Assembly: GCA_003153935.1 (NCBI GenBank) | Contig: PMCA01000004.1 | Coordinates: forward strand, 23,757 to 87,756 | Length of the DNA: 64,000 nucleotides | DNA from: Elusimicrobiota bacterium | Lineage (GTDB): Bacteria > CAYTYR01 > UBA6262 | Reading direction: 5' to 3' | In this document: one piece after another, positions 36,493 through 52,653 of the stretch | Numbering within the stretch: the first letter of the stretch is position 1 | Layout of the letters: the number at the start of each line of letters is the position of its first letter | Translations under genes and position numbers: made by a program | The notes under the pieces: generated by a model | What the model saw: the letters and a program-made list of their open reading frames with translations, nothing else | Database searches by the model: none | Told to the model about the DNA's origin: nothing

Positions 36493-36924
36493 TTAAAGCG
36501 CCTTGTCTTTCTGGCTATCAGTTATCTTTTCATAGATCAAAACCACTGCGATACAAGCCAACGGCGTTGCTACCAACCCGGTCATCAACCAGGACAGGAT
36601 CAACTTAGTATCCACGCTGGTATTATAGGTGATCAGCAATGGCGGCACCGTTATCGCCCATAAAAGAACCCCCAGGAAAAACCCTTTCACCACGCCTTTA
36701 CCCGGAATGCCATGCTGCAGAACCGTGAACATCAAAGCGTATATCAAGCCGCTGGAAAAATTACCCAGCAAAGTTTGCACCAACCAGACATTGCTCAAGG
36801 GTTTTAACAACTCAGGTGTCTGCGCGTAAAAGCTTTTAAACAGGATCGTGAACAGGGCGTTGATAAAATAAGAAACTGTCGCTACGACTATGCCGGCCAG
36901 CAGCCATTTCGCTATGTTCTTCAT
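36493..36924 (-). CDS. Four-helix integral membrane protein, unknown function
   Basis: 143 residues with four hydrophobic helices (about 8-30, 48-68, 80-100, 108-130) and short loops. I do not recognise a family, and no catalytic motif is seen. The start overlaps the phoU stop by four bases (ATGA), so it is the last gene of the phosphate operon and may be Pi-regulated. Confidence 0.7.
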   Translation of the reverse strand: MKNIAKWLLAGIVVATVSYFINALFTILFKSFYAQTPELLKPLSNVWLVQTLLGNFSSGLIYALMFTVLQHGIPGKGVVKGFFLGVLLWAITVPPLLITYNTSVDTKLILSWLMTGLVATPLACIAVVLIYEKITDSQKDKAL

Positions 36925-37613
36925 TTACTTCCTCCGTTCTGTTTTTCATGCAGGATTTCCAGGTGGTGTTTAACTACCTTACCTTCTACCATAAAAATGA
37001 CATCTTCGCAAATGTTTGTTGTATGATCGCAGATTCTTTCCAAATGCCGGGCCACCAGTAACAGGGCTACGGCCCGAGGAGCAGTGGAGGGATCTTTGGC
37101 GATATAGTCATTGATCAATTCCGATTGGACCAGGTTGCGTAAATTATCAGCCTCAGAATCGCGGAGAATTACTTTCCTGGCTAATTCCACGTCCTTGCGC
37201 ACGAAAGCGTCGATAGCTTCCTTGACCATGGTTTGGGCCAGGGCTGCCAGCTTGGGGATATCGATCAGGGGTTTCAACTGGGGTTTGTCTGCTAGCTGCA
37301 AAACCCTCTGGGCGATATCTACAGCCAGATCGGCGATTCGTTCCAGGTCGGTGGAGATCTTCATAGCCATGGTTACGAAACGCAGATCTATAGCCATGGG
37401 CTGGTGCAGTGCCAGCAGGTCCAGGCACTTCTCATCAATAGCCAGTTCTAGCTCGTCGATCTTTTTGTCATCGGTGATAACTTGTTCAGCCTGCTCGGCG
37501 CTGCGGGCTTTCAAGGCTTCTACCGATTTCAGGATCGACTCCTCGGTCAATCCGCCCATGCGCAGTATTTCCTTGTTCAGATCAGCCAGTTCTTCATCAA
37601 AATGTCTTTGCAT
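36921..37613 (-). CDS. phoU: Phosphate signalling regulator PhoU
   Basis: 230 residues made of two PhoU three-helix bundles (about 15-105 and 118-205), each with the conserved E/D-rich metal-binding pattern (for example DLERIADLAVDIA and HLERICDHTTNICEDV). PhoU links the Pst transporter to the PhoR kinase and keeps the regulon off when phosphate is plentiful. It follows two pstB genes with an 18-base gap and a GGAGGG ribosome site. Confidence 0.95.
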   Translation of the reverse strand: MQRHFDEELADLNKEILRMGGLTEESILKSVEALKARSAEQAEQVITDDKKIDELELAIDEKCLDLLALHQPMAIDLRFVTMAMKISTDLERIADLAVDIAQRVLQLADKPQLKPLIDIPKLAALAQTMVKEAIDAFVRKDVELARKVILRDSEADNLRNLVQSELINDYIAKDPSTAPRAVALLLVARHLERICDHTTNICEDVIFMVEGKVVKHHLEILHEKQNGGSK

Positions 37614-37631
37614 TGTACCCTCCAGTTTTTA

Positions 37632-38384
37632 TTATCCGAATCGTCCGGTCAAATAGTCTTCCGTGCGCGAGTCCTTCGGGCTGGTGAATATCTGGTTGGT
37701 TTCGCCGAACTCCACCAGCTCACCCAGCAGAAAATAACCTGTATACTCCGATACCCGCGCGGCTTGCTGCATATTATGCGTCACGATGATTATGGTATAT
37801 TGTTTCTTGAGTTCGTACATCAGGTCTTCGATCTTGGCCGTGGACATAGGGTCCAGGGCGGAGCAGGGCTCATCCATCAGCAGGACCTCGGGTTCAACGA
37901 CCGCTAAGCGCGCGATACACAGCCGCTGCTGCTGCTCACCGGAAAGAGTCAGGGCGTTTTGATCCAGCTTATCCTTGACCTCGTCCCACAGATGCACCGA
38001 TTCCAAACTCCACTGCAATTTCTGTTCCATAATTTTTTTATCCAGGATACCATGGACCCGTAAACCGTAAACAACATTATCATAAATGCTTAAAGGAAAG
38101 GGATTGGGTCTCTGGAAGACCATGCCCACCTTTTTGCGCAGGGCCAGCAGGTCAACGTCACTACCATAGATATCGTTACCGCTTATCTTTACCGAACCGC
38201 TGATACGGACGTCATCGATCAGGTCGTTCATGCGGTTAAGCGTGCGCAAAAAAGTGGATTTGCCGCAGCCGGAAGGCCCGATCAGGGCAGTGATCTTCTG
38301 CTTCTCTATCCTCAGGGTAATTTCCTTCAAAGCCTGGAAATTACCGTAAAAGAGGTTTAGTTTGTTTACTTCAATAATGCTCAT
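37632..38384 (-). CDS. pstB: Phosphate ABC transporter ATPase PstB (copy 1)
   Basis: 250 residues. Walker [10 protein letters not shown], Walker [14 protein letters not shown] and the H-loop THNMQQAAR are present. The signature is LSGEQQQR instead of LSGGQQQR, a change in the second Gly worth noting. It lies directly behind another pstB with a 4-base overlap, like the tandem PstB pair of B. subtilis. Confidence 0.93.
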
Positions 38385-39142
38385 CCAAACCGTCCTACTA
38401 TATAATCATTGGTACGCTGGTCAACCGGCGCGGTGAAGATCTTTTCCGTCTGGCCTATCTCGATCATCTCCCCGCTTAAGAAAAAAGCGGTCCGGTCAGC
38501 TACGCGCGCGGCCTGTTTGGTGTTATTAGTCACCAGAATGATCGTATATTGTTTCTTTAATTCGCGTAAGGATTCTTCTATCTTCATGGTAGAAATTGGG
38601 TCCAAACCGGAACAAGGTTCGTCCAATAAAATATAATCAGGACGCAAAGCCAGGATCCGAGCCACGCATAATCTTTGCTGCTGGCCTCCGGATAACTTTA
38701 AGGCGCTGGAATCCAATCTGTCCTTTACCTCCTCCCATAAAGTGGTCTGTTTGAGGCAATCAGCCACGAGTTCATTGAGCTTTCTCCTGCTATGAACACC
38801 GGCCATCTTGGGACCAAAGGCCACGTTCTCATAGATGGAGCGGGGCAGGGGCACTGGCGTGGCGAAAACTATGCCAAGTTTACGTCGTAACTCTACGACG
38901 CTCATGTCCGGCGCGTAAATGTCTTTCCCGTCTATTTTCAGGGTGCCTTCCACCCGGGACCCGGGAACTAGGTCGTTAAGCCGGTTCAAGGAGCGCAGGA
39001 AAGTGGATTTGCCGCTGCCGGCTGGCCCAATGATACCCAGTATCTCGTTCCGGAAGACCTGCAGGTTTATTTTTTTTAGGGTCTGCAAAGGGCCGAAAAA
39101 ATGGCTGAAATCCCTGGATTCAATAGCTATGTTTGAAGTCAT
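38381..39142 (-). CDS. pstB: Phosphate ABC transporter ATPase PstB (copy 2)
   Basis: 253 residues. Walker A is GPAGSGKST, signature LSGGQQQR, Walker [14 protein letters not shown], then TNNTKQAAR in the switch region where the usual His is replaced by Asn. Loss of the switch His would weaken ATP hydrolysis, so this copy may work as a partner of the next PstB in a heterodimer. It is 11 bases from pstA1. Confidence 0.9.
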
Positions 39143-39153
39143 TTAACCGTTCC

Positions 39154-39990
39154 TCAGGAATATTTCTTCATGAACTTGTGCATTAAACGGTAAGCGGTGA
39201 TGTTTATTATCAGGATGGCGATTATCAATACCGCTGCCGTGCCGTAAGCGTTAGGCATGGAGATGCCTTCACGAGCCAAAATATAGAAGTGGACGGCCAT
39301 GGTCCGGGAAGACGAAAAGATCGAAGTCGGTATGCGCAAAGCGCTGCCGGCCGTAAAGATCACCGCGGCGGTTTCACTGATACTGCGGCCGACACTGAGA
39401 ATTACCCCCGTAACGATACCCGGCAAGGCGCTGGGCAGAACCACTTTGGTTACGGTCTGCCATTTGGTTCCCCCGAGTGAAAAACTTACTTCCCGCAGGT
39501 TGTAGGGGACTGATTTAAGGGCCTCTTCACTAGTCCGGATGATCGTTGGCAATATCATAAAAGCCAGGGTTAAACTGCCGCTCAGTATGGACCAGCCGAA
39601 TTTCAGTTTGGTGACGAACAGGATGAAACCGAACAAACCGAAAATTATTGAAGGAATTCCAGCCAGGCATTCCGAACCGAAACGAATTACCCTGGTTATT
39701 TTGCTCTCCAAGGTATATTCGGTGAGGTAGATGGCCGTGCCCACTCCCAGTGGCGTGGCTATCAAAATGGCCCCGATAGTTAAGGCGATCGTGCCGATAA
39801 TAGTGGAATAAATACCGCCGCTTTTTCCCATATCGGTCGGGTTGGTGGTCAGGAACTGGTAGTTAAGCACCGGTAAGCCGTTTTTGAGGATGAAAAATAT
39901 TATATAGAATAGGATAAATACGGTAATGGCGGTAAACAGCCACAGGATGGATTGTACTACTCTTTGTTCTAGACGCGGGTTAACGTACAT
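39154..39990 (-). CDS. pstA: Phosphate ABC permease PstA (system 1)
   Basis: 278 residues with six membrane helices and the binding-protein-dependent transport loop around EEALKSVPYNLREVSFSLGGTKWQT. It pairs with PstC1 to make the phosphate channel. Two bases separate it from pstC1. Confidence 0.92.
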   Translation of the reverse strand: MYVNPRLEQRVVQSILWLFTAITVFILFYIIFFILKNGLPVLNYQFLTTNPTDMGKSGGIYSTIIGTIALTIGAILIATPLGVGTAIYLTEYTLESKITRVIRFGSECLAGIPSIIFGLFGFILFVTKLKFGWSILSGSLTLAFMILPTIIRTSEEALKSVPYNLREVSFSLGGTKWQTVTKVVLPSALPGIVTGVILSVGRSISETAAVIFTAGSALRIPTSIFSSSRTMAVHFYILAREGISMPNAYGTAAVLIIAILIINITAYRLMHKFMKKYS

Positions 39991-39992
39991 TA

Positions 39993-40853
39993 TTATTTAG
40001 TCCTCTGCTTGGCAGCGGTAGCATTGGCGATCGTGTTCAGGATCATAATGATAATGAATAAAATAACCCCGGTAGCAAAAAGCGCCTGGCGGTGCTCGCC
40101 GCTGGCGTAGCCCATTTCCAGGGCGATATTAGAAGTCAGGGTCCTGACCGGATCCAGTACGGAATGGGGGATACTGACAGCGTTCCCGGCGATCATGATC
40201 ACCGCCATGGTCTCGCCTATAGCCCGGCCCATACCCAGGATGATACTGGCGATTATCCCTGATTTAGCCGATGGCAGGGTGACCATTTTGGTGGTTTGCC
40301 ATTTAGTAGCTCCCAAGGCGATAGATCCCTCCCGGTAACTGCGCGGTACTGCCTGCAAAGAGTCAATGGAAATGCTGATGATCGTGGGCAGGATCATAAT
40401 ACCAAGGATGATCGAAGCGGCCAGGACGGAAAGACCGGAACCGCCAAGGTGTTCCCGGATAAAAGGTACCAGGATAATAACGCCCATGAAACCGTAGACC
40501 ACGGAGGGGATACCGGCTAAGAGCTCGATGATGGGTTTGATGATCTGGCGCAGGCGTAAACTGGAGAATTCGGTCAGGAAGATCGCGCAAGCCAGGCCAA
40601 AAGGGATGCCGATTATCAAGGAACCGGCGGTTACCGCCAGCGAACCTATGATCATTGGCAATAAACCGAAACTTTGTTCGGTAGGATACCAGTCCAGGCC
40701 GAAAAGGAACTTATTAACGCCGTATTTGAACATGATCGGCATTCCCTCTTTAAAGATAAAAAGGGTGATGATAGCCAGGATGGAAATAGCGGAAAGGGCT
40801 ATCATTAATAAGGCCAGCTGGATCAGTTTTTCGTTTCTCTCCAGAGTAGTCAT
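39993..40853 (-). CDS. pstC: Phosphate ABC permease PstC (system 1)
   Basis: 286 residues, six membrane helices. The coupling loop is [23 protein letters not shown], and SGGIPSVVYGF-like LLAGIPSVVYGFMGVI is conserved. It overlaps pstS1 by four bases. Confidence 0.92.
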   Translation of the reverse strand: MTTLERNEKLIQLALLMIALSAISILAIITLFIFKEGMPIMFKYGVNKFLFGLDWYPTEQSFGLLPMIIGSLAVTAGSLIIGIPFGLACAIFLTEFSSLRLRQIIKPIIELLAGIPSVVYGFMGVIILVPFIREHLGGSGLSVLAASIILGIMILPTIISISIDSLQAVPRSYREGSIALGATKWQTTKMVTLPSAKSGIIASIILGMGRAIGETMAVIMIAGNAVSIPHSVLDPVRTLTSNIALEMGYASGEHRQALFATGVILFIIIMILNTIANATAAKQRTK

Positions 40854-41641
40854 TTGGCGGCGATCAAACCTTCTTTTCTTATTAATTCCTGCCCTTCAGC
40901 TGAAAGGACAAAATCAATAAATTCCTTAGTTTCACCGGCTGGTTCATCCTTGGTTACGAACAAGAAAGGCCGGACCAGTTTATATTTTTTAGTAATTATA
41001 TTTTCATCGGTGGCCTTGACGCCGTCCAGGTTCATGGCTTTGACCTTTTCGCTGACCAGTCCCAGTGAGATATAGCCGATAGCATAAGGATCACCGGAAA
41101 CGATCTCCCGGACCGTGCCGTTAGAATCTTCGACGATGCAACCCCTGAAGATCCGAACCTTTTTCATCACTAGTTCCTGGAAAGCGCCGCGGGTGCCCGA
41201 ACCTTCTTCTCGTGTGACCACGTCGATATTTTTATTCTGGCCGCCCAGCTCTTCCCAGTTGCGTATTTTTCCGGCAAAAATCTGTTTAACCTGTTCGATG
41301 CTAAGATTATTGATTAAATTACTAGGGTGCACAATGATCGCTAAACCGTCACGGGCGACAACAATCTCATGTAGAACTTTCTCTTCCGGTTTGAGTTCTC
41401 GGCTGGAGGTGCCGATGTCAGCCGCGCCGCTTAAGGCGGCCTGGATGCCGGCGCTGGAGCCGCCGCCCTGGACATTGACTACGCGCCCAGGATGTTCCTC
41501 CATATAGACTTCAGACCACTTATCGGCAAAGGGCTGGACGCTGGTGGACCCGGCTACGGTGATACCTTTCTGGCTGGCATTGCGCCCGCAGCCAACCAGG
41601 AAAAGCAGGCATAAAAAAAAGACAAGCAGTTTGCGTTTCAT
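40850..41641 (-). CDS. pstS: Phosphate-binding lipoprotein PstS (system 1)
   Basis: 263 residues. Signal peptide with lipobox FLVGCG (Cys 18), so it is tethered to the inner or outer membrane face. Phosphate-contact stretches are AGSTSVQP, GGGSSAGIQAA, TREEGSGTRGAF. It shares the fold with PstS2 at 44693 but is a lipoprotein while that one is soluble. It has its own sigma70 promoter, and the start codon lies within 2 bases of the inferred transcription start, without a Shine-Dalgarno, so the message is probably leaderless. Confidence 0.93.
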   Translation of the reverse strand: MKRKLLVFFLCLLFLVGCGRNASQKGITVAGSTSVQPFADKWSEVYMEEHPGRVVNVQGGGSSAGIQAALSGAADIGTSSRELKPEEKVLHEIVVARDGLAIIVHPSNLINNLSIEQVKQIFAGKIRNWEELGGQNKNIDVVTREEGSGTRGAFQELVMKKVRIFRGCIVEDSNGTVREIVSGDPYAIGYISLGLVSEKVKAMNLDGVKATDENIITKKYKLVRPFLFVTKDEPAGETKEFIDFVLSAEGQELIRKEGLIAAK

Positions 41642-41649
41642 ATGGGCGC

Positions 41650-41678
41650 ATTATAGCAGTTTTCAAGGTCGGGTTCAA
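41650..41678 (-). promoter_or_regulatory. Internal promoter of pstS1
   Basis: On the minus strand: TTGAAC (41673-41678), 17-base spacer, TATAAT (41650-41655). Start would be near 41643, next to the ATG. No PHO-like repeats, so this promoter may give basal, Pi-independent expression. Confidence 0.7.
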
Positions 41679-41681
41679 TGA

Positions 41682-42077
41682 TTATTTAATTTCTTTGATC
41701 AGAGTCAATACTTTTTGTTCAATTTCATCCCTGATCGGTCTTATTTTTTCCAAGGGCTGGCCCTTAGGGTCGGCCAGGGCCCAATTGATCATTTTGGCGC
41801 CGGGAATAAAGGGACAGGTATCACCGCAGCCCATGGTAATCGCATAATCGATCTTGAGATTTATGAACTTTGACAGTTCCTTGGGCCGGGTTTGGCCTAA
41901 ATCGATGTTTTTTTCTTTCATAGCTTCAACCACTACCGGGTTTATCTGGGTGGCCGGTTTGGTCCCCGCGCTATAGGCAGTAAGCTTGTCTGCGCCGTGG
42001 AATTTGGCGAAGCCCTCTGCCATCTGGCTGCGGCCGGCGTTCTCGGTGCAAATGAAAAGAAGCGTTTTCTGGGTCAT
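41682..42077 (-). CDS. arsC: Arsenate reductase, low-molecular-weight phosphatase fold
   Basis: 131 residues. Active loop [15 protein letters not shown] (Cys-x5-Arg-Ser), then [24 protein letters not shown] with a second Cys pair, as in thiol-linked ArsC. It would reduce arsenate that enters through Pst. It overlaps pstB3 by 4 bases and so is in the transport operon. A protein tyrosine phosphatase role is less likely given the GCGD-CP motif. Confidence 0.88.
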
Positions 42078-42835
42078 CCGAACCTCCCGGTTATGTAGTC
42101 TTCTGTCTGTTTTTTTGCCGGATTGGTGAATATCTTTTCCGTTTTATCAAATTCGATCAATTCTCCCAGCAGGAAGAAGCCGGTGTAATCGGAAATACGC
42201 GCGGCTTGCTGCATATTATGGGTGACTATGGCGATGGTATATTTTTCTTTAAGCTCATTGATTAATTCTTCGATCTTGGCGGTGGAGATGGGGTCCAGGG
42301 CTGAGCAGGGTTCATCGAACAGTATCACTTCGGGCTCTATAGCCAGGGCCCGGGCGATGCATAATCTTTGCTGTTGCCCACCTGACAATTCGGAAGCGTT
42401 AGCGTCCAGCCGGTCCTGTACTTCTTCCCACAGGGCGGAATTTTTCAGGCTGGTTTCCACCCGGTCAATGATCTCTCCTTTATTGTTAATACCATTGATG
42501 CGCAGGCCGTAGGCAATATTGTCAAATATCGATTTGGGAAAGGGATTGGATTTCTGGAAGACCATGCCGATCTTGCGGCGTATCTCCACCACGTCAACTT
42601 CCGGCGCGTAAATATCCTGCCCGTCCAGGAGGATCGCGCCTTCGACCCGACTGCCTATTATTATATCGTTCATCCGGTTCAAAATGCGAATAAAAGTGGA
42701 TTTACCGCAACCGGAAGGGCCGATGACCGCCGTCACCTTATTGCTTTCAATGCCCATGTTAATGTCTTTCAGCGCCAGGTTCTGCCCATAATAGAAATTA
42801 AGGTTTTTTACTTCCATGCGGTTTGTGGTTACCAC
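42074..42835 (-). CDS. pstB: Phosphate ABC transporter ATPase PstB (system 2)
   Basis: 253 residues. All canonical motifs are intact: [37 protein letters not shown] and THNMQQAAR. It is probably the most standard PstB of the three here. It overlaps pstA2 by 7 bases and arsC by 4. Confidence 0.93.
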
Positions 42836-43692
42836 TTCTTTTTCCTCCTGTAATAGTTGCGGATAACGATGGCTATCATATTGATTCCCAGGACCAGGAC
42901 TATCAAGACCAGGGAGGCGCCATAGGCGATGGCTTTTTGTTCTTTGGGATGACTGCCCTCGGTCATTAAAGCGTATATATGATAAGGAAGGGCCATAACT
43001 TCACTGAAAACCGAATTGGGCAGTTTCATGGTGTAAAAAGTCGCCGCGGTGAATAATATCGGAGCAGTTTCACCGGCCACCCGGCCAACCCCGAGGATGG
43101 CCCCGGTAATGATGCCGCCGATGGCGTTAGGCAGGACTATCTTGTAAATGGTCTGCCACTTGGTTGCGCCCAAAGCCAGTGACGCTTCGCGGAAACCGTT
43201 TGGCACTAACAGTAAGGCTTCTTCACTGGCGCGAATAATTACAGGCAGGATCATAATGCCAAGTGTTAAACTTCCGGAAAGTATGGAAACGCCGAATTTA
43301 CAATAATTGACGAATAAAGCCAAGCCGAATAAACCAAAAACTATGGATGGTACGCTGGCCAGGTTACTGATGCCGATGCGGATCAGGCGGATGACCTTGC
43401 CCTGGACGGCGTATTCGGTCATGTAGATAGCGGCCATGATACCTAACGGCAGAGCAAAAAGGATGGCCCCCATGGTTAAGTAGAAAGTGCCAAGGATGGC
43501 GGGAAAGATCCCGCCGGAAGTCATGCCATTCTCCGGCATTTTGGTCAGGAATCCCCAGTTGATAACCTTAATGCCCCGCACAAATAAAAAATAAAGCAGA
43601 ATGCCCAATATTATAAAGATTATAAGCGCTGAAGTCCTTAGCGCCAGGAATCCCATTTGTTGTTTAATTTCCCGCCATTTGCGGTTATCCAT
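42829..43692 (-). CDS. pstA: Phosphate ABC permease PstA (system 2)
   Basis: 287 residues, six helices, coupling loop around [25 protein letters not shown]. One base overlaps pstC2, so they are made in step. Confidence 0.92.
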
Positions 43693-44576
43693 TACACGAT
43701 CCTTTTCCTGAACCGCTGGGCGATCAGGTCAGCGATAATATTAAAAATAAGGGTCAGGATGAAAAGCACGATGGCGATAGCGAAAAGAGAGTAATAGTGA
43801 TCACTGCCGATAGCAGTCTCACCCATCTCCGCGGCGATGGTAGCGGTCATGGTCCTGACCGGCTGCAGGAAGCCGTGGGGAATGACGGCGGCACCACCGC
43901 CGACCATGAGCACGGTCATGGTTTCGCCGATGGCCCGGCCCATACCCAGTATCACCGCTGAACTTATCCCCGAGAAAGCGGCCGGGACGGTTACTTTGAT
44001 GATAGTTTCCCATTTATTAGCGCCCAGGGCGTAGGAGGCTTCTTTGAAACCCCGCGGAACCGCGGAAATACAGTCTTCGGAAATGCTGGTGATAGTAGGA
44101 ATAGCCATTATTCCAAGGAGAATGCTGGCATTTAAAGCGTTAAGACCGGTGGGTAATCCAAAAGCCGATTGCAGGAAAGGAGCGATCACCACCATGCCGA
44201 AGAAACCCAGTACTACGGACGGGAAACCGGCCAGGACCTCGACCGTAGGTTTCAGTATCTCCTTCATACGCGGGGAGGCGATCTCCGATATATAAATAGC
44301 GGCTCCGAGTCCTAACGGGACTGCCACAATGATTGAGCCGATAGTGACCCATAAAGATCCCATGATCAGCGGGAAAGCGCCGAACTCAGGCGGATCGAAG
44401 GTAGGGTACCAGTGCCGGCCGAATAAAAAATCCGCTACCTTGATATCCTTAAAGAGAGGCAGACCCTCTTTGAACAAAACAATGACGATTCCCAATAGGA
44501 AAATATTCGAGAGGAAGGCAAAGGCCAGGAAAAACCATTCTAATAATTTTTCTTTTGTCTTATTTAAGATCATCAT
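43692..44576 (-). CDS. pstC: Phosphate ABC permease PstC (system 2)
   Basis: 294 residues, six helices, coupling loop near SAVPRGFKEASYALGANKWET. It begins after a terminator-like hairpin and a local promoter, so its expression can differ from that of pstS2. Confidence 0.92.
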   Translation of the reverse strand: MMILNKTKEKLLEWFFLAFAFLSNIFLLGIVIVLFKEGLPLFKDIKVADFLFGRHWYPTFDPPEFGAFPLIMGSLWVTIGSIIVAVPLGLGAAIYISEIASPRMKEILKPTVEVLAGFPSVVLGFFGMVVIAPFLQSAFGLPTGLNALNASILLGIMAIPTITSISEDCISAVPRGFKEASYALGANKWETIIKVTVPAAFSGISSAVILGMGRAIGETMTVLMVGGGAAVIPHGFLQPVRTMTATIAAEMGETAIGSDHYYSLFAIAIVLFILTLIFNIIADLIAQRFRKRIV

Positions 44577-44592
44577 CAGTTCCTTGACCGCT

Positions 44593-44620
44593 ATTATAGC
44601 ACTTCTATTAAAAAAAGCAA
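44593..44620 (-). promoter_or_regulatory. Putative promoter of pstC2
   Basis: Minus strand: TTGCTT (44615-44620), 16-base spacer, TATAAT (44593-44598). It overlaps the T-run of the terminator between pstS2 and pstC2. Confidence 0.45.
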
Positions 44621-44664
44621 TTGGCTAAAGGCGCTGGAATAGGGGATTCCAAGCACCTTTAGCC
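44610..44664 (-). terminator. Intergenic terminator between pstS2 and pstC2
   Basis: Long stem GGCTAAAGG...CCTTTAGCC (44623-44664) with two small mismatches and a 5-base loop, followed on the minus strand by a run of seven T (44610-44616). Partial readthrough would keep the binding protein more abundant than the permease. Confidence 0.7.
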
Positions 44665-44692
44665 TGGGTGTAAACATATGGGATTACTATGT

Positions 44693-45508
44693 TTACTTTA
44701 CCGCGACAAAACCCTGGTCTTCGACCATTTTCTGGCCTTCCGGGCTCATAATATAGTCGATAAATTGCTTAGCTAAGCCCTTAGGATCACCGTTGGTATA
44801 CATATATAACGGCCGGCTGATAGGATACTTACCGCTGATGACAGTTTCTTTATTCGCGGTTATGCCGTTAACTACCAGAGCTTTTATCTCATCGGTCACG
44901 TAACCTAAACCAACATAACCGATCGCGCCGGGGGTGCTGGCTACAGTGGTCAATACAGCCTGGTTTGAGGCCAGCATCAGGGCATCTTCCCGTACTTTTG
45001 ACCCTTTCAGCACTTTTTCGTTGAAAACTTCAAAGGTGCCGCTGGAGGAATCTCGTGATACCACTACTAATGAACCGCCGGATCCACCCGCATCGCTCCA
45101 TTTAAGTATCTCACCCGAGTATATTTTCTTCAGGGTGTCCAGGTTGATGCTGTTAATGTTATTAGCTTTATTCACGATCACGCAAATACCGTCTTTGGCA
45201 ATGATGTTAGCGAACATGGTCACGCCTTTGCCCCGGGCGGTAGCGATCTCTTTGGCTTTCGCCGCGCGGGAAGAATCCCCGATATCCACGGTTCCATCAA
45301 CGATCGCCTGGATGCCGACTCCCGAACCTCCGCCTCTGACGCTCACATCAACAGACGGATTCGCTTTCATGAAATCTTCCGCCCCTTTCTGGGCGATCGG
45401 TAGTACGGTGGTCGAGCCGCTTAAGGTCAGTTTCTGACCGGCTGTTAAATTGCCGGCCAGCAGGCCCACCAGGCCTAACAAACATATTGTTTTTATGATT
45501 TTCTTCAT
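44693..45508 (-). CDS. pstS: Periplasmic phosphate-binding protein PstS (system 2)
   Basis: 271 residues with a cleavable signal peptide (about 1-23, LTAG/Q) and no lipobox, so it is soluble in the periplasm. Phosphate contacts: SGSTTVLP, RGGGSGVGIQA, RDSSSGTFEVF. Placed 17 bases behind the porin and expressed from the porin's PHO-box promoter. Confidence 0.93.
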   Translation of the reverse strand: MKKIIKTICLLGLVGLLAGNLTAGQKLTLSGSTTVLPIAQKGAEDFMKANPSVDVSVRGGGSGVGIQAIVDGTVDIGDSSRAAKAKEIATARGKGVTMFANIIAKDGICVIVNKANNINSINLDTLKKIYSGEILKWSDAGGSGGSLVVVSRDSSSGTFEVFNEKVLKGSKVREDALMLASNQAVLTTVASTPGAIGYVGLGYVTDEIKALVVNGITANKETVISGKYPISRPLYMYTNGDPKGLAKQFIDYIMSPEGQKMVEDQGFVAVK

Positions 45509-45525: not shown

Positions 45526-46593
45526 TTATTGTGCGAATACGCGCGCGAAACTCCAGGCGATCTGTCCCAGGTATTGAGTGGTCGTGGCTACCGTGCTGTC
45601 CTCAGGCTTGTCCTGCTGGTAGTTCAACTGCAATAAAACGCCTTTAGTCAGAGCGTAGTTTACGCCTATTATAGTAGTAGCCACTTTGTCATTGGCTTTA
45701 TCTTTATTAGGATCCCAGCTGTCATATCTGGCCAAAACGGTCCATTCAGGGGTGATCTGGTAAGAAGGCATGATAGAGTAACCGCTCTTCTTCACATTCG
45801 TGTAGGTATTCGTGGTAGTACTATAGGTATCGACATTCTGGCCTATATATTCCGCCCACATATCGAACGGACCATAGGCGGTGCGGAGCATGCCGACCGC
45901 CAAATGATTCTTATTATAAGCGGTATTGCCGATCGGGGTAACGGTACCCTGCAATTCACTCTTGTAGCTGCCGCCAACCGTGATACCCGGCACAGGAATG
46001 ACCCTGACATCAGCTACGAAAGCCGGCTCGGTATTGATATCCGGGCTCAGTTCCTTCTTGTAGCCTTCTCCATTATATATACCGGCTTCATAAGAACCAT
46101 AACCCATGGGGAAATAGCCATTGAGGATGATCCCGTTATCCGCAGAAGCATCGATGCCGTTCTTATCGATGAATTCCTTTTCAATAATACGGTAATCATA
46201 GTCATAGATCAAACCTACGTAGTTCTTCTGCAAGCCGACCGTCAGTTTGCTTTCCGGCAGATAGAAGGGGAGATCCACATAGCTTTCTTTCAACTTGATA
46301 CCGGCTCCATTCACGTAATTGCTGGTTTTGTCGGAATAAAAATCCGCGGTCCATTGCCCTTTAATGGTATCAGTGAACTGATAGGCGTAACGGACATAGC
46401 CACGGTCGACGGAAAAGCCGGCATCGGTTACAGTTTTGTCAGTTTTAGTTGGTCCTTGCAAGTCCTTGCTGACCACTCTGGTTCTTAGCCAGTTCGTTCC
46501 GGAAAAGGTCCAGTCACCGGCTGCCGCAAAGGCTATTTGACTTAAACTTAGAGCTAAACACGAAATAAACAGTATTTTTACTAACTTACGCAT
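45526..46593 (-). CDS. Outer-membrane porin, phosphate-selective type (OprO/OprP-like)
   Basis: 355 residues with a signal peptide (cut near AFAAAG, about 24). The rest is rich in alternating beta-strands with aromatic girdles and ends in a hydrophobic strand with ...FARVFAQ. The layout (GYVRYAYQFTDTIKGQWTADF, PEWTVLARYDSWDPN) fits the phosphate-selective porin O/P family. It likely lets phosphate reach PstS. AAGGAGG ribosome site. A PHO box starts within the preceding regulator gene, so this operon should turn on in Pi starvation. Confidence 0.78.
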   Translation of the reverse strand: MRKLVKILFISCLALSLSQIAFAAAGDWTFSGTNWLRTRVVSKDLQGPTKTDKTVTDAGFSVDRGYVRYAYQFTDTIKGQWTADFYSDKTSNYVNGAGIKLKESYVDLPFYLPESKLTVGLQKNYVGLIYDYDYRIIEKEFIDKNGIDASADNGIILNGYFPMGYGSYEAGIYNGEGYKKELSPDINTEPAFVADVRVIPVPGITVGGSYKSELQGTVTPIGNTAYNKNHLAVGMLRTAYGPFDMWAEYIGQNVDTYSTTTNTYTNVKKSGYSIMPSYQITPEWTVLARYDSWDPNKDKANDKVATTIIGVNYALTKGVLLQLNYQQDKPEDSTVATTTQYLGQIAWSFARVFAQ

Positions 46594-46693: not shown

Positions 46694-46747
46694 ATTATAT
46701 TAAATGCGCATTACCGGTAAATTACCTGTAGGTTAAATCTAAGTTAA
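46694..46747 (-). promoter_or_regulatory. PHO-box-like promoter of the porin-pst operon
   Basis: Minus strand, reading 5' to 3': four 6-base elements TTAACT (46742-46747), TTAACC (46731-46736), GTAATT (46720-46725), GTAATG (46709-46714), each separated by 5 bases, then 9 bases and TATAAT (46694-46699). The upstream part overlaps the end of the response-regulator gene. No -35 is seen, as expected for an activator-dependent Pho promoter. Confidence 0.65.
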
Positions 46748-47126
46748 AGTAACTGACCGGGTTTTTCATCGTTTTATTGATCAAACTGGTCAATTCGGCG
46801 ATATCAAAAGGCTTGATCACATATTCGCTGGCCCCTAACTTAAAAGAGTTGGCGATCCGGTCTTTTTGTTTGAGGGCGCTGATGATTACCACCGGTATCT
46901 TGGATAACCTCATGTTGCGTTTTAACAAAAGCAGGATATCCAGCCCGCTCAACCCCGGCAGCATCAGGTCCAGCAGTATAACATCCGGCTTAACTGATTT
47001 AGCGGTCTCCAGGACATGATCCCCGTCATACAGGCCGACGCAGGTGAACCCGGCTTTTTCCAGGTTGTAAGTCAGAAGTTCAACGATGTCTTTATCGTCA
47101 TCAATGATCATTATCTTTTTAGCCAT
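46722..47126 (-). CDS. Stand-alone response-regulator receiver protein
   Basis: 134 residues, only a CheY-like receiver: DDD acid pocket at 9-11, phospho-acceptor D53 in ILLDLML, and the Lys in VIKPF. No output domain. It has its own PHO-box promoter and lies between phoR and the porin. It could compete for or relay phosphate from PhoR. Its 3' end holds the porin's PHO box, so the two genes share sequence space. Confidence 0.88.
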   Translation of the reverse strand: MAKKIMIIDDDKDIVELLTYNLEKAGFTCVGLYDGDHVLETAKSVKPDVILLDLMLPGLSGLDILLLLKRNMRLSKIPVVIISALKQKDRIANSFKLGASEYVIKPFDIAELTSLINKTMKNPVSYFNLDLTYR

Positions 47127-47181
47127 GTTTTTTATCCCAGTCCTCTGGGATTCCTCCTCTATTTTTTAATTGTCTGGGATA

Positions 47182-47235
47182 ATTATAACGGAGCGATACT
47201 AAATAGGAATTAAGAGTAAGTTAAATCCGGGTAAA
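47182..47235 (-). promoter_or_regulatory. PHO-box-like promoter of the orphan response regulator
   Basis: Minus strand 5' to 3': TTTACC (47230-47235), TTAACT (47219-47224), TTAATT (47208-47213), TTAGTA (47197-47202), each spaced by 5 bases, then 9 bases and TATAAT (47182-47187). The layout is identical to the porin promoter. Confidence 0.65.
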
Positions 47236-47241
47236 ACAAAA

Positions 47242-47268
47242 CCCCCTGTTTAAGAGCTAAACAGGGGG
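47242..47268 (-). terminator. Terminator of the phoBR operon
   Basis: Perfect 11-bp stem CCCCCTGTTTA (47242-47252) with TAAACAGGGGG (47258-47268), 5-base loop, and TTTTGTTTT on the minus strand. It lies 49 bases beyond the phoR stop and just ahead of the response-regulator PHO box. Confidence 0.85.
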
Positions 47269-47317
47269 TAGATTTTATGAATTTGTGAAATAGTGAATGG
47301 TGAATAGGGAAAAGGGG

Positions 47318-49084
47318 TTAGAGGGGGAGAGTGAACCAGAAGGTAGAGCCTTTTTCTTCGACGCTTTCTACGCCGATACGGCCCTGATGGGCTTCGATGA
47401 TGTGTTTGACTATCGCTAAGCCCAGCCCGGTGCCGCCCAATTCGCGGGAGCGGGCTTTATCCACGCGGTAAAAACGTTCGAAAATACGGGGCAGGTCTTT
47501 GGCGGGGATGCCCTGGCCGGAGTCAGTCACCTGGATCTTTATTGAATCCGGCGCGGCGGTGGCGATAATAGTTACCGAGCCGTTCTCGCGGTTAAATTTA
47601 ATGGCGTTATCCAACAGGTTGATCAGCACCTGCTTAAGCTGGTCGCGGTCAGCGTTTATGGTTGGTAGAGAGGCCGGCAGCTGCCGCCGTAACTGGATCT
47701 TGGCTTTTTGCAGCTGCGGGCTGAAGCTTTCCGCGGTCTCCAGGATCAATTCCCGCAGGTCAACCGGCTGCAAGTTCGGTTGTATCTCCCGGGATTCGAT
47801 CTTGGAAAGCTCCAGTATGTCATCGATCAGTTTGCCCAGGCGCTGGGCATGGTCGTGAATGATATTAAGGAAGCGGCGATTATTATTCTTATCTTCCAGG
47901 GCGCCGTTCAGCAGGGTTTCCACGAAACCCCGGATAGAGGTGAGAGGCGTCCGCAGTTCGTGCGAAACATTGGAGATGAATTCCTTCCTGATATTTTCCA
48001 GTCTCCTGATCTCGGTAATGTCATGCATTACCAGTACGGCGCCGAAAGGCGTTTCTTCGCTGGTGAGGGGGCTGGCATAGATCAGGAATGTCTTCTGGAC
48101 CGGCAGCAACAAGGTTAGTTCGCTCTGCTGCGGCTGGCCGGAGCGCAAAACGTCATTAAGGATCTTATCCAGGTCATTGTTGCGGATAGCCTCCAGCAGC
48201 ATCTTGCCCTGAACCTCGGTCCTGGTTACGGAGAAAATATTTTCTATGGTCTTGTTGACCAGCAGGATGTTACCGCTGAGGTCGCAGGCAACCACTCCTT
48301 CGGTCATGCTGGAAATAATGGCGGTGAGTTTATTCTGTTCCCGCTTGATTTCCGACATCGTTCCTTGCAATTGCTGGAAGAGCTGGTTTAAGGACCGGGC
48401 CAGATTGCCTATCTCATCTTTGGTGAAGACCGGTATCTTCTGATTCAGGTCCCCGCGTATGGCATTTTGCGTTATTTGATTAATTTGCCGGATGGGTTTG
48501 GTGACAAAATAAGCGGAAATATATCCCAATATAATGGTAAGGAACAGAGCTAATAGTAACCCGAACCACAAATTGGACAGGGTATTAACTGTTAAATATT
48601 TTACTAGGGTAGTGGGCAGGGCGATCCGGATCACCCCGGTAATTTCACCGGTTCCGGTTTTAGCGGGAATAGCCGCGTAAAGCATGGGTTTAAGGACAGT
48701 GAAACTATAGCGGGTACTATATCCGATTTTACCGTTCAGGGCCTCGATAACTTCCGGCCGGGTGCCGTGGTTCTCCATAGTTTCCGGATTGGACTCGGAA
48801 TCCCCCAGCACGATCCCGTTTTTGGCGATAATAGTAATGCGGGAGTTGGTTTTCTGTTTTATTTTGAATATCAGGGGCTGGACTAGCTTAGGGTTTCCCT
48901 GGCTGATCAATTCCGCCGGGATGAATTCAGAGATCAACTGGGCGCGGGTGACCATTTCATCTTCCAATTGAAGCTTCGATTCCCGGCTCAATTTATGCAG
49001 GATAGTTATGGTAGTGAATGAGAATACCAATAATACCAGTAGCAGGTAGTTGAGGATCAATTTAGAGGTGAGGTTGATTTTCAT
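47318..49084 (-). CDS. phoR: Phosphate-sensing histidine kinase PhoR
   Basis: 588 residues. Two membrane helices (about 8-28 and 170-193) flank a periplasmic region of about 140 residues. HAMP (about 194-246), PAS (about 252-360), HisKA with H375 in VSHELRTPLTS, and ATPase motifs DNAIKFN, DSGQGIPA, GTGLGLAIVKHI follow. E. coli PhoR lacks such a large periplasmic part; this layout is that of the longer Gram-positive/delta-type PhoR. It overlaps phoB by 4 bases. Confidence 0.92.
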   Translation of the reverse strand: MKINLTSKLILNYLLLVLLVFSFTTITILHKLSRESKLQLEDEMVTRAQLISEFIPAELISQGNPKLVQPLIFKIKQKTNSRITIIAKNGIVLGDSESNPETMENHGTRPEVIEALNGKIGYSTRYSFTVLKPMLYAAIPAKTGTGEITGVIRIALPTTLVKYLTVNTLSNLWFGLLLALFLTIILGYISAYFVTKPIRQINQITQNAIRGDLNQKIPVFTKDEIGNLARSLNQLFQQLQGTMSEIKREQNKLTAIISSMTEGVVACDLSGNILLVNKTIENIFSVTRTEVQGKMLLEAIRNNDLDKILNDVLRSGQPQQSELTLLLPVQKTFLIYASPLTSEETPFGAVLVMHDITEIRRLENIRKEFISNVSHELRTPLTSIRGFVETLLNGALEDKNNNRRFLNIIHDHAQRLGKLIDDILELSKIESREIQPNLQPVDLRELILETAESFSPQLQKAKIQLRRQLPASLPTINADRDQLKQVLINLLDNAIKFNRENGSVTIIATAAPDSIKIQVTDSGQGIPAKDLPRIFERFYRVDKARSRELGGTGLGLAIVKHIIEAHQGRIGVESVEEKGSTFWFTLPL

Positions 49085-49788
49085 GCGCCGTCCAGACTTC
49101 CGGTTTCCAGCCGGTAGCCGACGTTTTTAATGGTAATAATGCGCGGGGCCAGGCTTTTTAATTTCTTGCGCAGATAGCGGATATGAACATCCACGGTGCG
49201 AGTGGTGATCTCCAGGGAATGTTCGTAACCCCAGACATTCTCCAGCAGACTATCCCGGGTAACAGCGCGGCTCTTGGCGGCCAGTAGCGTTTTGAGCAGT
49301 TCAAATTCTTTAGTGGTCAAGGCTATGGTTTTCCCTTTTTGGGTCACCAGGTATTTACTGAAATCAATGACCACCTCGCCGATCCTGGCTATTTCCGGCT
49401 GCTTAGCTTCGGGCCGGAGCCGGCGGAACAAAGCTCGGATGCGGGCTATGAGTTCTTTAGGACTGAAGGGCTTGGTGATATAATCATCCGCTCCCAATTC
49501 CAGGCCGATTATTTTGTCGCTCTCGCTGGACTTCGCCGTCAGCATAATAATAGGTATGTGGCTGGTTTTAGAATCCTTCTTTAGTATTTTGCATACTTCC
49601 AGGCCGTCGATTTCCGGCAGCATCAGGTCCAGCAGGATCAGATCAGGATGGTGGCGGCGGGCCTGGTCCAGGGCTTTCTGGCCATTAGTCGCCACTTGGA
49701 TCTTGAAATTCTCTTTTTCCAGGTTATATTGGATCAATTCCACTATGTCCCGGTCATCTTCTACTATTAATATCTTTTCCTTGCTCAT
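49081..49788 (-). CDS. phoB: Phosphate response regulator PhoB/PhoP
   Basis: 235 residues from the ATG at 49788, which has GGGAG before it; an upstream start would add residues lacking the regulator fold. Receiver with acid pocket ED-D near 10-12, D54 in LILLDLML, Lys in ITKPFSP, and an OmpR-type winged helix at about 135-230 (LTTKEFELLKTLL, TVDVHIRYLRKKL). It should bind the four PHO-like sites found here. Its own promoter region has no clear PHO box. Confidence 0.93.
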   Translation of the reverse strand: MSKEKILIVEDDRDIVELIQYNLEKENFKIQVATNGQKALDQARRHHPDLILLDLMLPEIDGLEVCKILKKDSKTSHIPIIMLTAKSSESDKIIGLELGADDYITKPFSPKELIARIRALFRRLRPEAKQPEIARIGEVVIDFSKYLVTQKGKTIALTTKEFELLKTLLAAKSRAVTRDSLLENVWGYEHSLEITTRTVDVHIRYLRKKLKSLAPRIITIKNVGYRLETGSLDGA

Positions 49789-49882
49789 GGTTTCTCCCAG
49801 CTTACACCTATATCTTACCAAAATTACCCCTCCAGAGGCAACATGATTATTATAATTCCGCCTCTTTTCTTAATTTATTTAG

Positions 49883-49914
49883 CGGGAGCATAAAAGAATA
49901 CTTTTATGCTCCCG
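49883..49914 (-). terminator. Perfect hairpin between phoB and the small secreted gene
   Basis: A 14-bp perfect stem CGGGAGCATAAAAG (49883-49896) with CTTTTATGCTCCCG (49901-49914) and a 4-base loop. It follows the minus-strand gene at 49934. The sequence beyond it is A/T-rich but without a solid T-run, so termination strength is unsure. Confidence 0.6.
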
Positions 49915-49933
49915 AGAGATTGACTAAGTTTTT

Positions 49934-50404
49934 TTACCAAGCGACGCTGAGAACTTTATAGCCGATATAGTATCCCAGATTATTTGCGGAGTGGGAATTG
50001 CTTCCCGCTACTACTACTTGCAAGTTGCTTTCCAAAGCGGAAGGGGCAGTCCTGATAATATTACTAAGCGTGCCACCCACCCTGATAAAACTTGGATTCC
50101 TATCCGATTCACTGGCTTTCTTCCTGCCAATACCGTTCAAAAAGTTATCATTGGGAGTCGAGGTCCCCGGTTTAAAACCAAATCCTGCCGGTAACGGGCC
50201 CTTCATGGTTCCGATTGCAGGCGATCCCGCTGTGGCGGTTGAAGTAAATGTAGGAGTGATCGGTTTGCCAACACTATCCCTATAATGCTTGGTATTATTG
50301 GGGTTGTAACCAGCTGGGTATCCGCCTACTATATCCCCGACATTAACGGCGTAGCTGGCAGTTGCTAAAACCAGCAAACTTAAGACTACTAACAAGATCT
50401 TCAT
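49934..50404 (-). CDS. Small secreted protein of unknown function
   Basis: 156 residues with a clear signal peptide (cut near SYAV, about 19). The mature part is rich in Gly, Asn, Ser and Pro and has no Cys or membrane helix. I do not recognise a family. GGAGGAAAGG ribosome site. It sits between phoB and a PHO-regulated PHP gene, so a role in phosphate metabolism is possible but unproven. Confidence 0.65.
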   Translation of the reverse strand: MKILLVVLSLLVLATASYAVNVGDIVGGYPAGYNPNNTKHYRDSVGKPITPTFTSTATAGSPAIGTMKGPLPAGFGFKPGTSTPNDNFLNGIGRKKASESDRNPSFIRVGGTLSNIIRTAPSALESNLQVVVAGSNSHSANNLGYYIGYKVLSVAW

Positions 50405-50468
50405 TTTCCTTTCCTCCTTTTGCTTATTTTGTTACTTTGCTCTTATTTTAACTATTTTCACATAGGAT

Positions 50469-51179
50469 TTATAATTCCGCTCTTTTCCCTGAGCCCAGAT
50501 AATACTTGGCCAGGTTCTGGATACCGGTATGGAGGTAACGATATAAGTCACTGAGTGACCAAAAGTGGTAGTGAGCGGTGCATTTTTTCATTTCTATGGC
50601 GAGACGCAAGTCCGCGGCGGTTCTGCCCGCGAAAAGAGTATAGCCGTGTCCCAGGAAGTGGGCGTCATGGGCGTCACTAGAGCCGATAGCGGTATGCATG
50701 CTGGAGGCATTTTTCAGGGCAGCTTTCATATTGGCCCACCAACTGGCGGCGCTGGAGTTGCAGATGACTTCCAGGCCGTCTATAGGCAGCCGGTCCATTA
50801 ATTTGCCAGCGGAAACATGGCCACGTTTCTTGCCTATGTAGAAATGGAAGGGGTGGGGCAGTATGGCCAACCCTTTTTGCTGGTGTATCTTTTCAATGGT
50901 TTCCTCCGCTGTTAATCCGGGTTTGATGCGCTCTTTCAGGAATAAACCCAGTATATGCCCGTTGACGGTGGTGATCTCTTCGCCGACAATAACCTCGACG
51001 CCTAAATAGGGGTGGGCCTGGGCGAATTCCTGGGCTTTTTGCGCACCCTTGATACGGTTATGATCACAAATGGCTATCACCGCCAGCTCTTTGATAGAGG
51101 CGGTCTTGACGATCTGCTCCGGGCTGTCCAGCCCATCACTAAAGTAGGTATGAATGTGTAAGTCTGCTTTGCTTTTCAT
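50469..51179 (-). CDS. PHP-domain phosphoesterase
   Basis: 236 residues from the ATG at 51179 (AAGGAGA ahead). An upstream ATG at 51206 lies inside the predicted -10, so it is not the start. Metal ligands of the PHP fold are seen: ADLHIHTYFSDG, ICDHNRIKGA, EVIVGEEI, ILPHPFHF, and AIGSSDAHDAH. PHP enzymes hydrolyse phosphate esters or nucleotides with a trinuclear metal site. The PHO-like promoter argues for phosphate scavenging; an RNase AM-type nucleotide phosphatase is another option. Confidence 0.85.
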   Translation of the reverse strand: MKSKADLHIHTYFSDGLDSPEQIVKTASIKELAVIAICDHNRIKGAQKAQEFAQAHPYLGVEVIVGEEITTVNGHILGLFLKERIKPGLTAEETIEKIHQQKGLAILPHPFHFYIGKKRGHVSAGKLMDRLPIDGLEVICNSSAASWWANMKAALKNASSMHTAIGSSDAHDAHFLGHGYTLFAGRTAADLRLAIEMKKCTAHYHFWSLSDLYRYLHTGIQNLAKYYLGSGKRAEL

Positions 51180-51203
51180 AGTATTCTCCTTTTTGTTACT
51201 ATA

Positions 51204-51257
51204 CATATAACAAAGCCATAATAAGTATAAATTAGTGTCAGGTTAAATCGGTGTTAA
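51204..51257 (-). promoter_or_regulatory. PHO-box-like promoter of the PHP gene
   Basis: Minus strand 5' to 3': TTAACA (51252-51257), TTAACC (51241-51246), CTAATT (51230-51235), TTATTA (51219-51224), 5-base gaps, then 9 bases and TATATG (51204-51209). The first two elements equal the B. subtilis PHO consensus. Start would be near 51197, leaving an 18-base leader with the ribosome site. Confidence 0.65.
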
Positions 51258-51274
51258 GATTCCAGGAGGATAAA

Positions 51275-51328
51275 TTTACTCAATCTTAATTTAAACTTCA
51301 TTTGTTGTTAATATGGGCGCTTTATAGT
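51275..51328 (+). promoter_or_regulatory. PHO-box-like promoter of the small ORF and lipid glycosyltransferase
   Basis: Plus strand: TTTACT (51275-51280), TTAATT (51286-51291), TTCATT (51297-51302), TTAATA (51308-51313), 5-base gaps, then 9 bases and TATAGT (51323-51328). It is divergent from the PHP site. Confidence 0.6.
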
Positions 51329-51370: not shown

Positions 51371-51532
51371 ATGCAAAACGAGAACGCACTTCCCGTGGCT
51401 ACCGTGCAAAAGGACGAAATGGAACTTATACAGGTTTACCGGAAAGCCAAAGCTTTACGGTTTGCCGATATCAATGTGGCCATCCAGGAAGGCATAAGAG
51501 TCAAGCTATGGCTGACCGAGAAGAGGAAATAA
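51371..51532 (+). CDS. 53-residue charged protein, first gene after a PHO promoter
   Basis: Opens at an ATG with AAGGAGGT ahead and runs for 53 residues, rich in Lys, Glu and Val. The C-terminal half (FADINVAIQEGIRVKLWLTEKR) could form a strand-helix unit. It overlaps the glycosyltransferase start by 25 bases, so the two are coupled. I recognise no family; it may be a small regulator or subunit of the lipid enzyme. Confidence 0.6.
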   Translation: MQNENALPVATVQKDEMELIQVYRKAKALRFADINVAIQEGIRVKLWLTEKRK

Positions 51533-52653
51533 GAGCGGATATGCACACGAAAAAAGTTGTCATTCTTTATGCTTCCTGCGGGGCCGGGCATTATACTGCG
51601 GCGCAGGCGATCGCTGAGCGTTTCGCGGCGCAAAGCATGGCCGTGGAGATAAAAGACATCCTGGATTTTGCTCCGTCCTGGTATAAGCGGATTTATCGGG
51701 ATGGGTATTATTTTTTGATCAGGAAAATGCCCTGGTTGTGGGGTTTTCTTTATCGCAGTTCAGAAAGAAAGGGCCGGGTAACCATTTTGGACCAGTGGGT
51801 GAGATTATGGGAAACTAACCTTTTTCGCGACTTCTATCGTTTCTTGGATGAAGCCAAGCCCAACTTGGTGATCGCCACTCATTTTTTACCGGGTTCACTG
51901 CTGGCCGGGACCAACAGGGGCTTCAAATTCATGGTCGTGGTTACTGATTATTACGCCCATAGCTTGTGGCTTTCCGAGCGGACCGACCAGTATTTTGTTG
52001 CCTCCGAAGAGGTAAAAGGTAATTTGGTGGACAGAGGGGTGAATTCTGAGATCATAGCGGTCACCGGTATCCCGATCAAACCGGTCCCGGGTAGAAAAAG
52101 CCCCATGGCTGACAATAACGTATTAGGGATCGACCCTGCTGTTTTTAAAGTGTTGCTGTTAAGCGGCGCCGGCGGTTCCGGCCGGTTGGCGGCGATAATA
52201 AAAAGCTTGGAGAAATATGCCGGATCCTTGCAGTTAATAGTCAGCACTGGAATTGACCAGAAATTATTACAAGATCTGCGTAGTAAATTTGCCACCTCCA
52301 AACTGCACTTAAAACTGATCGATTTCAATACCCCTGTTTATCCGTATTTTCAGGCCGTGGATCTGGTTATCACCAAGCCGGGCGGCTTGACCATCACCGA
52401 ATGCATGGCCTTCGGACTACCTTTGCTGATGGTTAATGTAATTCCCGGCCAGGAGGAAGGAAATGCCGAATATATGAGGGAGAAAAGGGCCGGGATCCTG
52501 GTTAAAGATTTGCGCCGGCTGCCTGTTATAGTCGGGGAGTTGATGAAGGACAGATTAGAATTAGCGGAAATGGGCGCCCGGGCTATGCAAGCAGCTCCCA
52601 AGAATTCTGCCCAGGCCATGTTTAAGATAGCCCAGGCCGTACTAAAGAATTAA
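51508..52653 (+). CDS. Processive diacylglycerol-type glycosyltransferase (GT28, MGDG-synthase/UgtP-like)
   Basis: 381 residues (or 370 from ATG 51541). The N-terminal acceptor domain has LYASCGAGHYTAAQAIAERF, and the C-terminal donor domain has LLLSGAGGSGR, a Gly-rich loop, and GGLTITECMAFGLPLLMVN. These match family GT28 enzymes that add a sugar from UDP-glucose or UDP-galactose to diacylglycerol. Under phosphate shortage many bacteria make such glycolipids to replace phospholipids, which fits the PHO-box upstream. The substrate sugar cannot be told from sequence. Confidence 0.85.
   Translation: MADREEEIRADMHTKKVVILYASCGAGHYTAAQAIAERFAAQSMAVEIKDILDFAPSWYKRIYRDGYYFLIRKMPWLWGFLYRSSERKGRVTILDQWVRLWETNLFRDFYRFLDEAKPNLVIATHFLPGSLLAGTNRGFKFMVVVTDYYAHSLWLSERTDQYFVASEEVKGNLVDRGVNSEIIAVTGIPIKPVPGRKSPMADNNVLGIDPAVFKVLLLSGAGGSGRLAAIIKSLEKYAGSLQLIVSTGIDQKLLQDLRSKFATSKLHLKLIDFNTPVYPYFQAVDLVITKPGGLTITECMAFGLPLLMVNVIPGQEEGNAEYMREKRAGILVKDLRRLPVIVGELMKDRLELAEMGARAMQAAPKNSAQAMFKIAQAVLKN

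Follow-up and report, generated by a model that had tools for sequence, protein, structure and literature searches.

Pho operators and the architecture of the four promoters

The PhoP boxes of Bacillus subtilis are four TTAACA-like repeats separated by spacers of ~5 bp. The Pho box of E. coli PhoB is made of 11-nt direct repeats of CTGTCAT (PMC4415409). In cyanobacteria, the SphR Pho boxes follow CTTAACCT, an 8 bp element that together with a 3 bp linker is repeated every 11 bp, as seen at Synechocystis sphX, pstS1/S2 and phoA-nucH (PMC1906773).

The window analysed here is the whole stretch of 64,000 nucleotides, and it carries four promoters (A to D, Table 1) that were predicted from sequence to share a single plan. 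Base-by-base checking reproduced this plan (6-5-6-5-6-5-6-9-6, 54 bp) and its coordinates exactly at all four. The hexamers form tandem direct repeats with an 11-bp period and occupy the -35 position, ~9-10 bp 5′ of the -10 box; direct reading found no TTGACA-like hexamer 16-18 bp 5′ of the -10, so that the predicted absence of a -35 also stands. When gaps of 0-24 bp were compared, 9 bp gave by far the highest summed -10 score. Elements 3 and 4 depart from TTAAC (e.g. GTAATT, TTATTA). The original prediction counted four genes under this architecture. There are indeed four sites, but the items that they would control are four transcription units rather than single genes: porin-pst-phoU (A), the lone receiver (B), PHP-(hypothetical)-phoB-phoR (C) and a small ORF plus a glycosyltransferase (D).

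Table 1. Predicted Pho-box promoters and genes of the cluster, with positions in the window. Numbers within the architecture are spacers in bp.
Feature	Position	Strand	Architecture or domains	Context
Pho-box promoter A	46694..46747	-	TTAACT-5-TTAACC-5-GTAATT-5-GTAATG-9-TATAAT	5′ of porin-pst operon
Pho-box promoter B	47182..47235	-	TTTACC-5-TTAACT-5-TTAATT-5-TTAGTA-9-TATAAT	5′ of lone receiver gene
Pho-box promoter C	51204..51257	-	TTAACA-5-TTAACC-5-CTAATT-5-TTATTA-9-TATATG	5′ of PHP-phoB-phoR
Pho-box promoter D	51275..51328	+	TTTACT-5-TTAATT-5-TTCATT-5-TTAATA-9-TATAGT	divergent from C, 5′ of MGDG-synthase-like gene
Two pst gene sets (pstS, pstC, pstA, pstB), ArsC-like phosphatase, phoU	36921..45508	-		downstream of A
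Outer-membrane-porin-like protein (putative)	45526..46593	-		first gene after A
Stand-alone receiver	46722..47126	-	Pfam Response_reg only	under B; kept in G001 and G003
PhoR/PnpS-like sensor kinase	47318..49084	-	sCache-HAMP-PAS-HisKA-HATPase	
PhoB-like OmpR-family response regulator	49081..49785	-	Pfam Response_reg + Trans_reg_C	proposed binder of the boxes
PHP-family metallohydrolase	50469..51179	-	Pfam PHP	first gene of phoBR unit
MGDG-synthase / diglucosyl-diacylglycerol-synthase-like glycosyltransferase	51508..52653	+		under D

The sites resemble cyanobacterial SphR boxes in the sequence of their elements, in the 11-bp period, in having three or four copies in tandem, and in a diderm host with pst among the targets; they differ from them in the fixed 9-bp gap to the -10, in the predicted control of phoBR itself and in the weakness of elements 3 and 4. 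With the B. subtilis PhoP boxes they share the TTAAC core, the 11-bp period, the number of elements and the autoregulation (phoPR in that species), whereas host and target set differ. Tandem 11-nt repeats lying just 5′ of the -10, with the -35 absent, are also a property of the E. coli Pho box, but the base sequence of the latter is unlike the TTAAC-like elements. The contrast drawn with the E. coli code in the original prediction was correct: CTGTCA(T/C) repeats every 11 bp were searched for in the genome with 3 mismatches allowed and none was found. By contrast, a Bacillus-like code in a diderm cannot be called remarkable, as had been proposed, since cyanobacteria are diderms with CTTAACCT boxes at an 11-bp period (PMC1906773). 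That the present organism is itself diderm is inferred from the presence of Omp85 in its relatives.

A strong hairpin with a T-tract (CCCCCTGTTTA...TAAACAGGGGGTTTTGTTTT, positions 47240-47275) abuts the first element of B and resembles a terminator for phoR. A similar hairpin (CCCCTGTTTA...GAACAGGGG) lies 5′ of the box-B orthologue in G001, a relative from the same family. An Rfam search of the window gave no match.

Tests against chance and conservation in relatives

To score the sites independently of the window, a matrix was built only from the published cyanobacterial SphR boxes (Su et al. 2007, PMC1906773, Table 1). Scanning for four boxes at an 11-bp period placed B 1st, D 2nd, C 3rd and A 7th of 127,920 window positions, which identifies the TTAAC code of A-D as SphR-type, and among periods of 7-15 bp it was 11 bp that gave the highest top scores. 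Moreover, when a matrix was derived from any three of the sites, the one left out ranked 4th of 127,894, the first position after the three training sites. Each A/T-rich intergenic region was also subjected to 4000 dinucleotide shuffles, and the true score under the external matrix was reached by 1 shuffle for B, 4 for C, 4 for D and 100 for A; A is therefore the weakest of the four by this matrix and only moderately strong. In the matrix scan and shuffled A/T control, by which the original prediction was to be judged, random A/T-rich DNA was not matched as often as the Pho genes.

Within the phylum the comparison set comprised five genomes, of which G001 and G003 belong to another genus of the same family. 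Both keep the cluster in the same order, namely PHP, phoB, phoR, receiver, porin, pstSCAB and the second pst set; phoU follows in G003, and the G001 contig ends before that point. Sites A, B and C have counterparts 5′ of the corresponding genes in both genomes, as expected of a conserved architecture, with the orthologues of A at G003:C39:20917 and G001:C15:37748 (5′ of the same porin gene), of B at G003:C39:20269 and G001:C15:37261, and of C at G003:C39:16198 and G001:C15:33873. Our own 54-bp matrix recovered exactly these orthologues, with scores of 33-50 against ≤15.3 elsewhere in the stretches. Across the six orthologous pairs, identity was 86% in the elements and -10, 49% in the spacers and 40% in the flanks. 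A genome-wide pattern search gave 3 matches in the own genome, 3 in G003, 2 in G001 and 0 in each of G002 and G004, and the reversed control gave 0. PstS and PhoU were searched for in these last two relatives and neither was found, nor was any site in either genome; in G002 there was no full-length PhoB match, only receiver-type matches. An orthologue of site D was sought in the relatives without result, and D is found in the own genome only.

These data bear directly on whether A/T-rich intergenic DNA could have yielded the repeats by chance. The regions bearing the sites are 63-70% A+T, and the score of A alone was reached in 2.5% of shuffles under the external matrix. However, the orthologous sites in two genomes are conserved at the elements and not at the spacers, which already refutes a chance origin. 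The leave-one-out ranks and the empty reversed control speak against it as well, as does a 10-bp-period control from the wider survey described below, in which 0/30 loci had pst/phoU or phoB/phoR genes within 1.5 kb. We consider the probability of chance negligible.

In the own genome, the coding sequence of the lone receiver ends inside site A (46722-46747; final codons and stop, SYFNLDLTYR-stop), unlike in G003 and G001, where the receiver gene and the site A orthologue are separate.

Predicted regulators and target genes, and a proposed mechanism

We regard A-D as true Pho-box promoters belonging to a Pho regulon that is small, regulates itself and would be activated by PhoB~P at low phosphate (probability roughly 0.93); from the sequence data we infer the binding, the activation and the phosphate signal. 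In three genomes the sites lie 5′ of phosphate uptake and phoBR genes together with a putative cognate PhoB/PhoR pair. The reading as a Pho regulon, as originally put forward, appears well supported by the placement of the sites at phoBR, the pst operon and the porin, by their conservation at orthologues and by their absence from relatives without Pho genes.

Under this reading, scarcity of phosphate would lead the PhoR-like kinase to phosphorylate the PhoB-like regulator. PhoB~P would then bind the four TTAAC-like half-sites head-to-tail on one face of the helix, as the 11-bp period implies, and recruit a sigma-70-type RNA polymerase to the -10 that lies 9 bp downstream, thereby substituting for the missing -35, as E. 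coli PhoB does and as the boxes of cyanobacterial SphR indicate for that regulator. With PHP-phoB-phoR among the targets there would be positive feedback, and the lone receiver and the porin-pst-phoU uptake operon would be further targets. In the own genome only, the glycolipid synthase would be added, whose product could replace phospholipid.

The sensor kinase scored 456.1 bits against the NCBIfam PnpS model NF046044 (cut-off 400) and is thus of the PnpS/PhoR type. The best NCBIfam model for the PhoB-like protein is PhoB TIGR02154, at 249.4 bits and hence under the equivalog cut-off of 296.2. This shortfall leaves some room for real boxes whose binder is not PhoB but a different member of the OmpR family (WalR/RpaB-like), the more so as tandem binding is common to the OmpR family and a second Trans_reg_C gene is present on contig C34. 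However, the genome has only these two Trans_reg_C proteins, and one of them is the PhoB-like protein encoded inside the cluster. Moreover, the boxes lie at pst, phoU and phoBR themselves, and G002 lacks both the sites and the Pho genes. Therefore, another regulator is very unlikely and the PhoB-like protein is preferred as the binder. The recognition helix was considered as the cause of the difference between TTAAC and CTGTCA; it is near-identical in the two proteins (RTVDVHIRYLRKKL here, RTVDVHIRRLRKAL in E. coli) and by itself is not explanatory.

In other systems, a non-cognate regulator is reported to sequester a kinase (PMC10368727). The lone receiver is only 39% identical to the PhoB receiver, less than the three other receivers of the genome that were compared with the PhoB receiver (50-55%). 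Its helix 1 (VELLTYNLEK, against VELIQYNLEK in PhoB) is the nearest match to PhoB among the receivers compared. Helix 1 of receivers is where kinases recognise their partners. Because of this match the lone receiver is a possible target of PhoR, whose phosphoryl groups it may accept as a sink or in a feedback role; a Pho-controlled receiver of this kind suggests that feedback on PhoR is built in.

The porin-like protein had no match in Pfam or NCBIfam. Its relatives are encoded directly 5′ of pstS in G001 and G003 (73-76% identity) and at two WOR-3 loci, L003 and L004 (38%). Further along the unit, PstS was identified by NCBIfam TIGR02136 and PhoU by Pfam, and the gene order in G003 is identical. 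The two pst sets have diverged, and they are joined by an extra pstB and the ArsC-like low-molecular-weight phosphatase, all in one predicted operon.

The PHP protein scored 74 bits against NCBIfam CehA/McbA (cut-off 80). Its gene was originally listed with an ATG at 51206. Because this ATG falls within the -10 of site C, the true start is most likely the ATG at 51179, which is preceded by AAGGAG. In an unrelated family (G134:C5, loci L177 and L190), Pho-box-like sites likewise separate a PHP gene from a divergently oriented phoBR, an arrangement that suggests the PHP protein is a recurring member of Pho regulons.

The product of the gene under D matches Pfam MGDG_synth (3.9e-26) and, below the cut-off, NCBIfam PRK13609 (1.5e-45). 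The gene is absent at this place in G001 and G003, and a 49-51% identical copy is found elsewhere in all three genomes. That a glycolipid-synthase-like gene has its own Pho box suggests phosphate-sparing lipid remodelling.

Because the matches of the zero-background pattern in the own genome are confined to this cluster, the regulon is predicted to be small. Two patterns were also used to look for further regulon members outside the cluster; they returned the cluster itself and a single additional 3-mismatch match (contig C11), which does not exceed what the reversed control gave. A little-known phylum thereby gains a phosphate regulon that is mapped to the base and whose targets are predicted.

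Occurrence of the TTAAC code across bacteria

Lastly, we looked at how far this code extends. Among loci fetched through their PhoR, the same four-element array precedes the porin gene or pstS in two genomes of WOR-3, two of Elusimicrobiota, one of Dehalococcoidia and one that is unassigned. The porin comes first at both WOR-3 loci, where TATAAT follows as the -10 after a gap of exactly 9 bp. A generic pattern (TTAAY four times at 11 bp, 10 further bases and TATAAT, with three mismatches) was then run against 386 genomes and matched 70 of them, compared with about a dozen for the reversed control. At 36/105 loci, all outside the own phylum, pst or phoU lay ≤3 kb downstream (26/54 families), and phoB or phoR did so at 7 more; within 1.5 kb the counts were 29/105 for pst and 7/105 for phoB/phoR. 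The TTAAC code is thus widespread across bacterial groups. With a CTGTCA triplet pattern, 66 genomes gave matches, and only 2/30 loci examined, both from one family, precede pst genes; this pattern had no -10 and was less specific, which makes its comparison with the TTAAC pattern indicative only.

We tentatively suggest that the four-element TTAAC operator with its 9-bp gap might be an ancestral bacterial Pho code kept in many phyla, from which CTGTCAT (E. coli and its kin) and GTTCACC (Streptomyces) would be later departures; the basis is the pattern survey described above. The same architecture could possibly have arisen repeatedly, by parallel evolution rather than inheritance, a matter that concerns only its history. 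The elements are short and A/T-rich, the Pho consensus varies among species (PMC4415409), and both TTAAC and CTGTCA boxes occur in the survey, all of which would fit a parallel origin. Against it stand 26 families in which the arrays are 5′ of pst genes, with period and 9-bp gap unchanged and the operon order similar.

The type of site was already known from cyanobacteria and Bacillus, and the breadth of the survey is the part that may be useful to specialists; a search of the open-licence literature turned up no study that surveys this code across phyla. The portable pattern (TTAAY four times at 11 bp, then TATAAT) picks out pst promoters in many bacterial families, and the question of the oldest Pho operator code becomes testable from sequence.

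Two other kinds of array were encountered in the survey. Several small genomes (G118, G098 and G366) hold GTTAAC-type arrays in which numerous TTAAC repeats follow one another every 10 bp; at the loci examined these are not beside pst. In G055 and G329, which belong to one family, long arrays of CTGGCAC, unrelated to pst at the one locus of each examined, recur every 11 bp.
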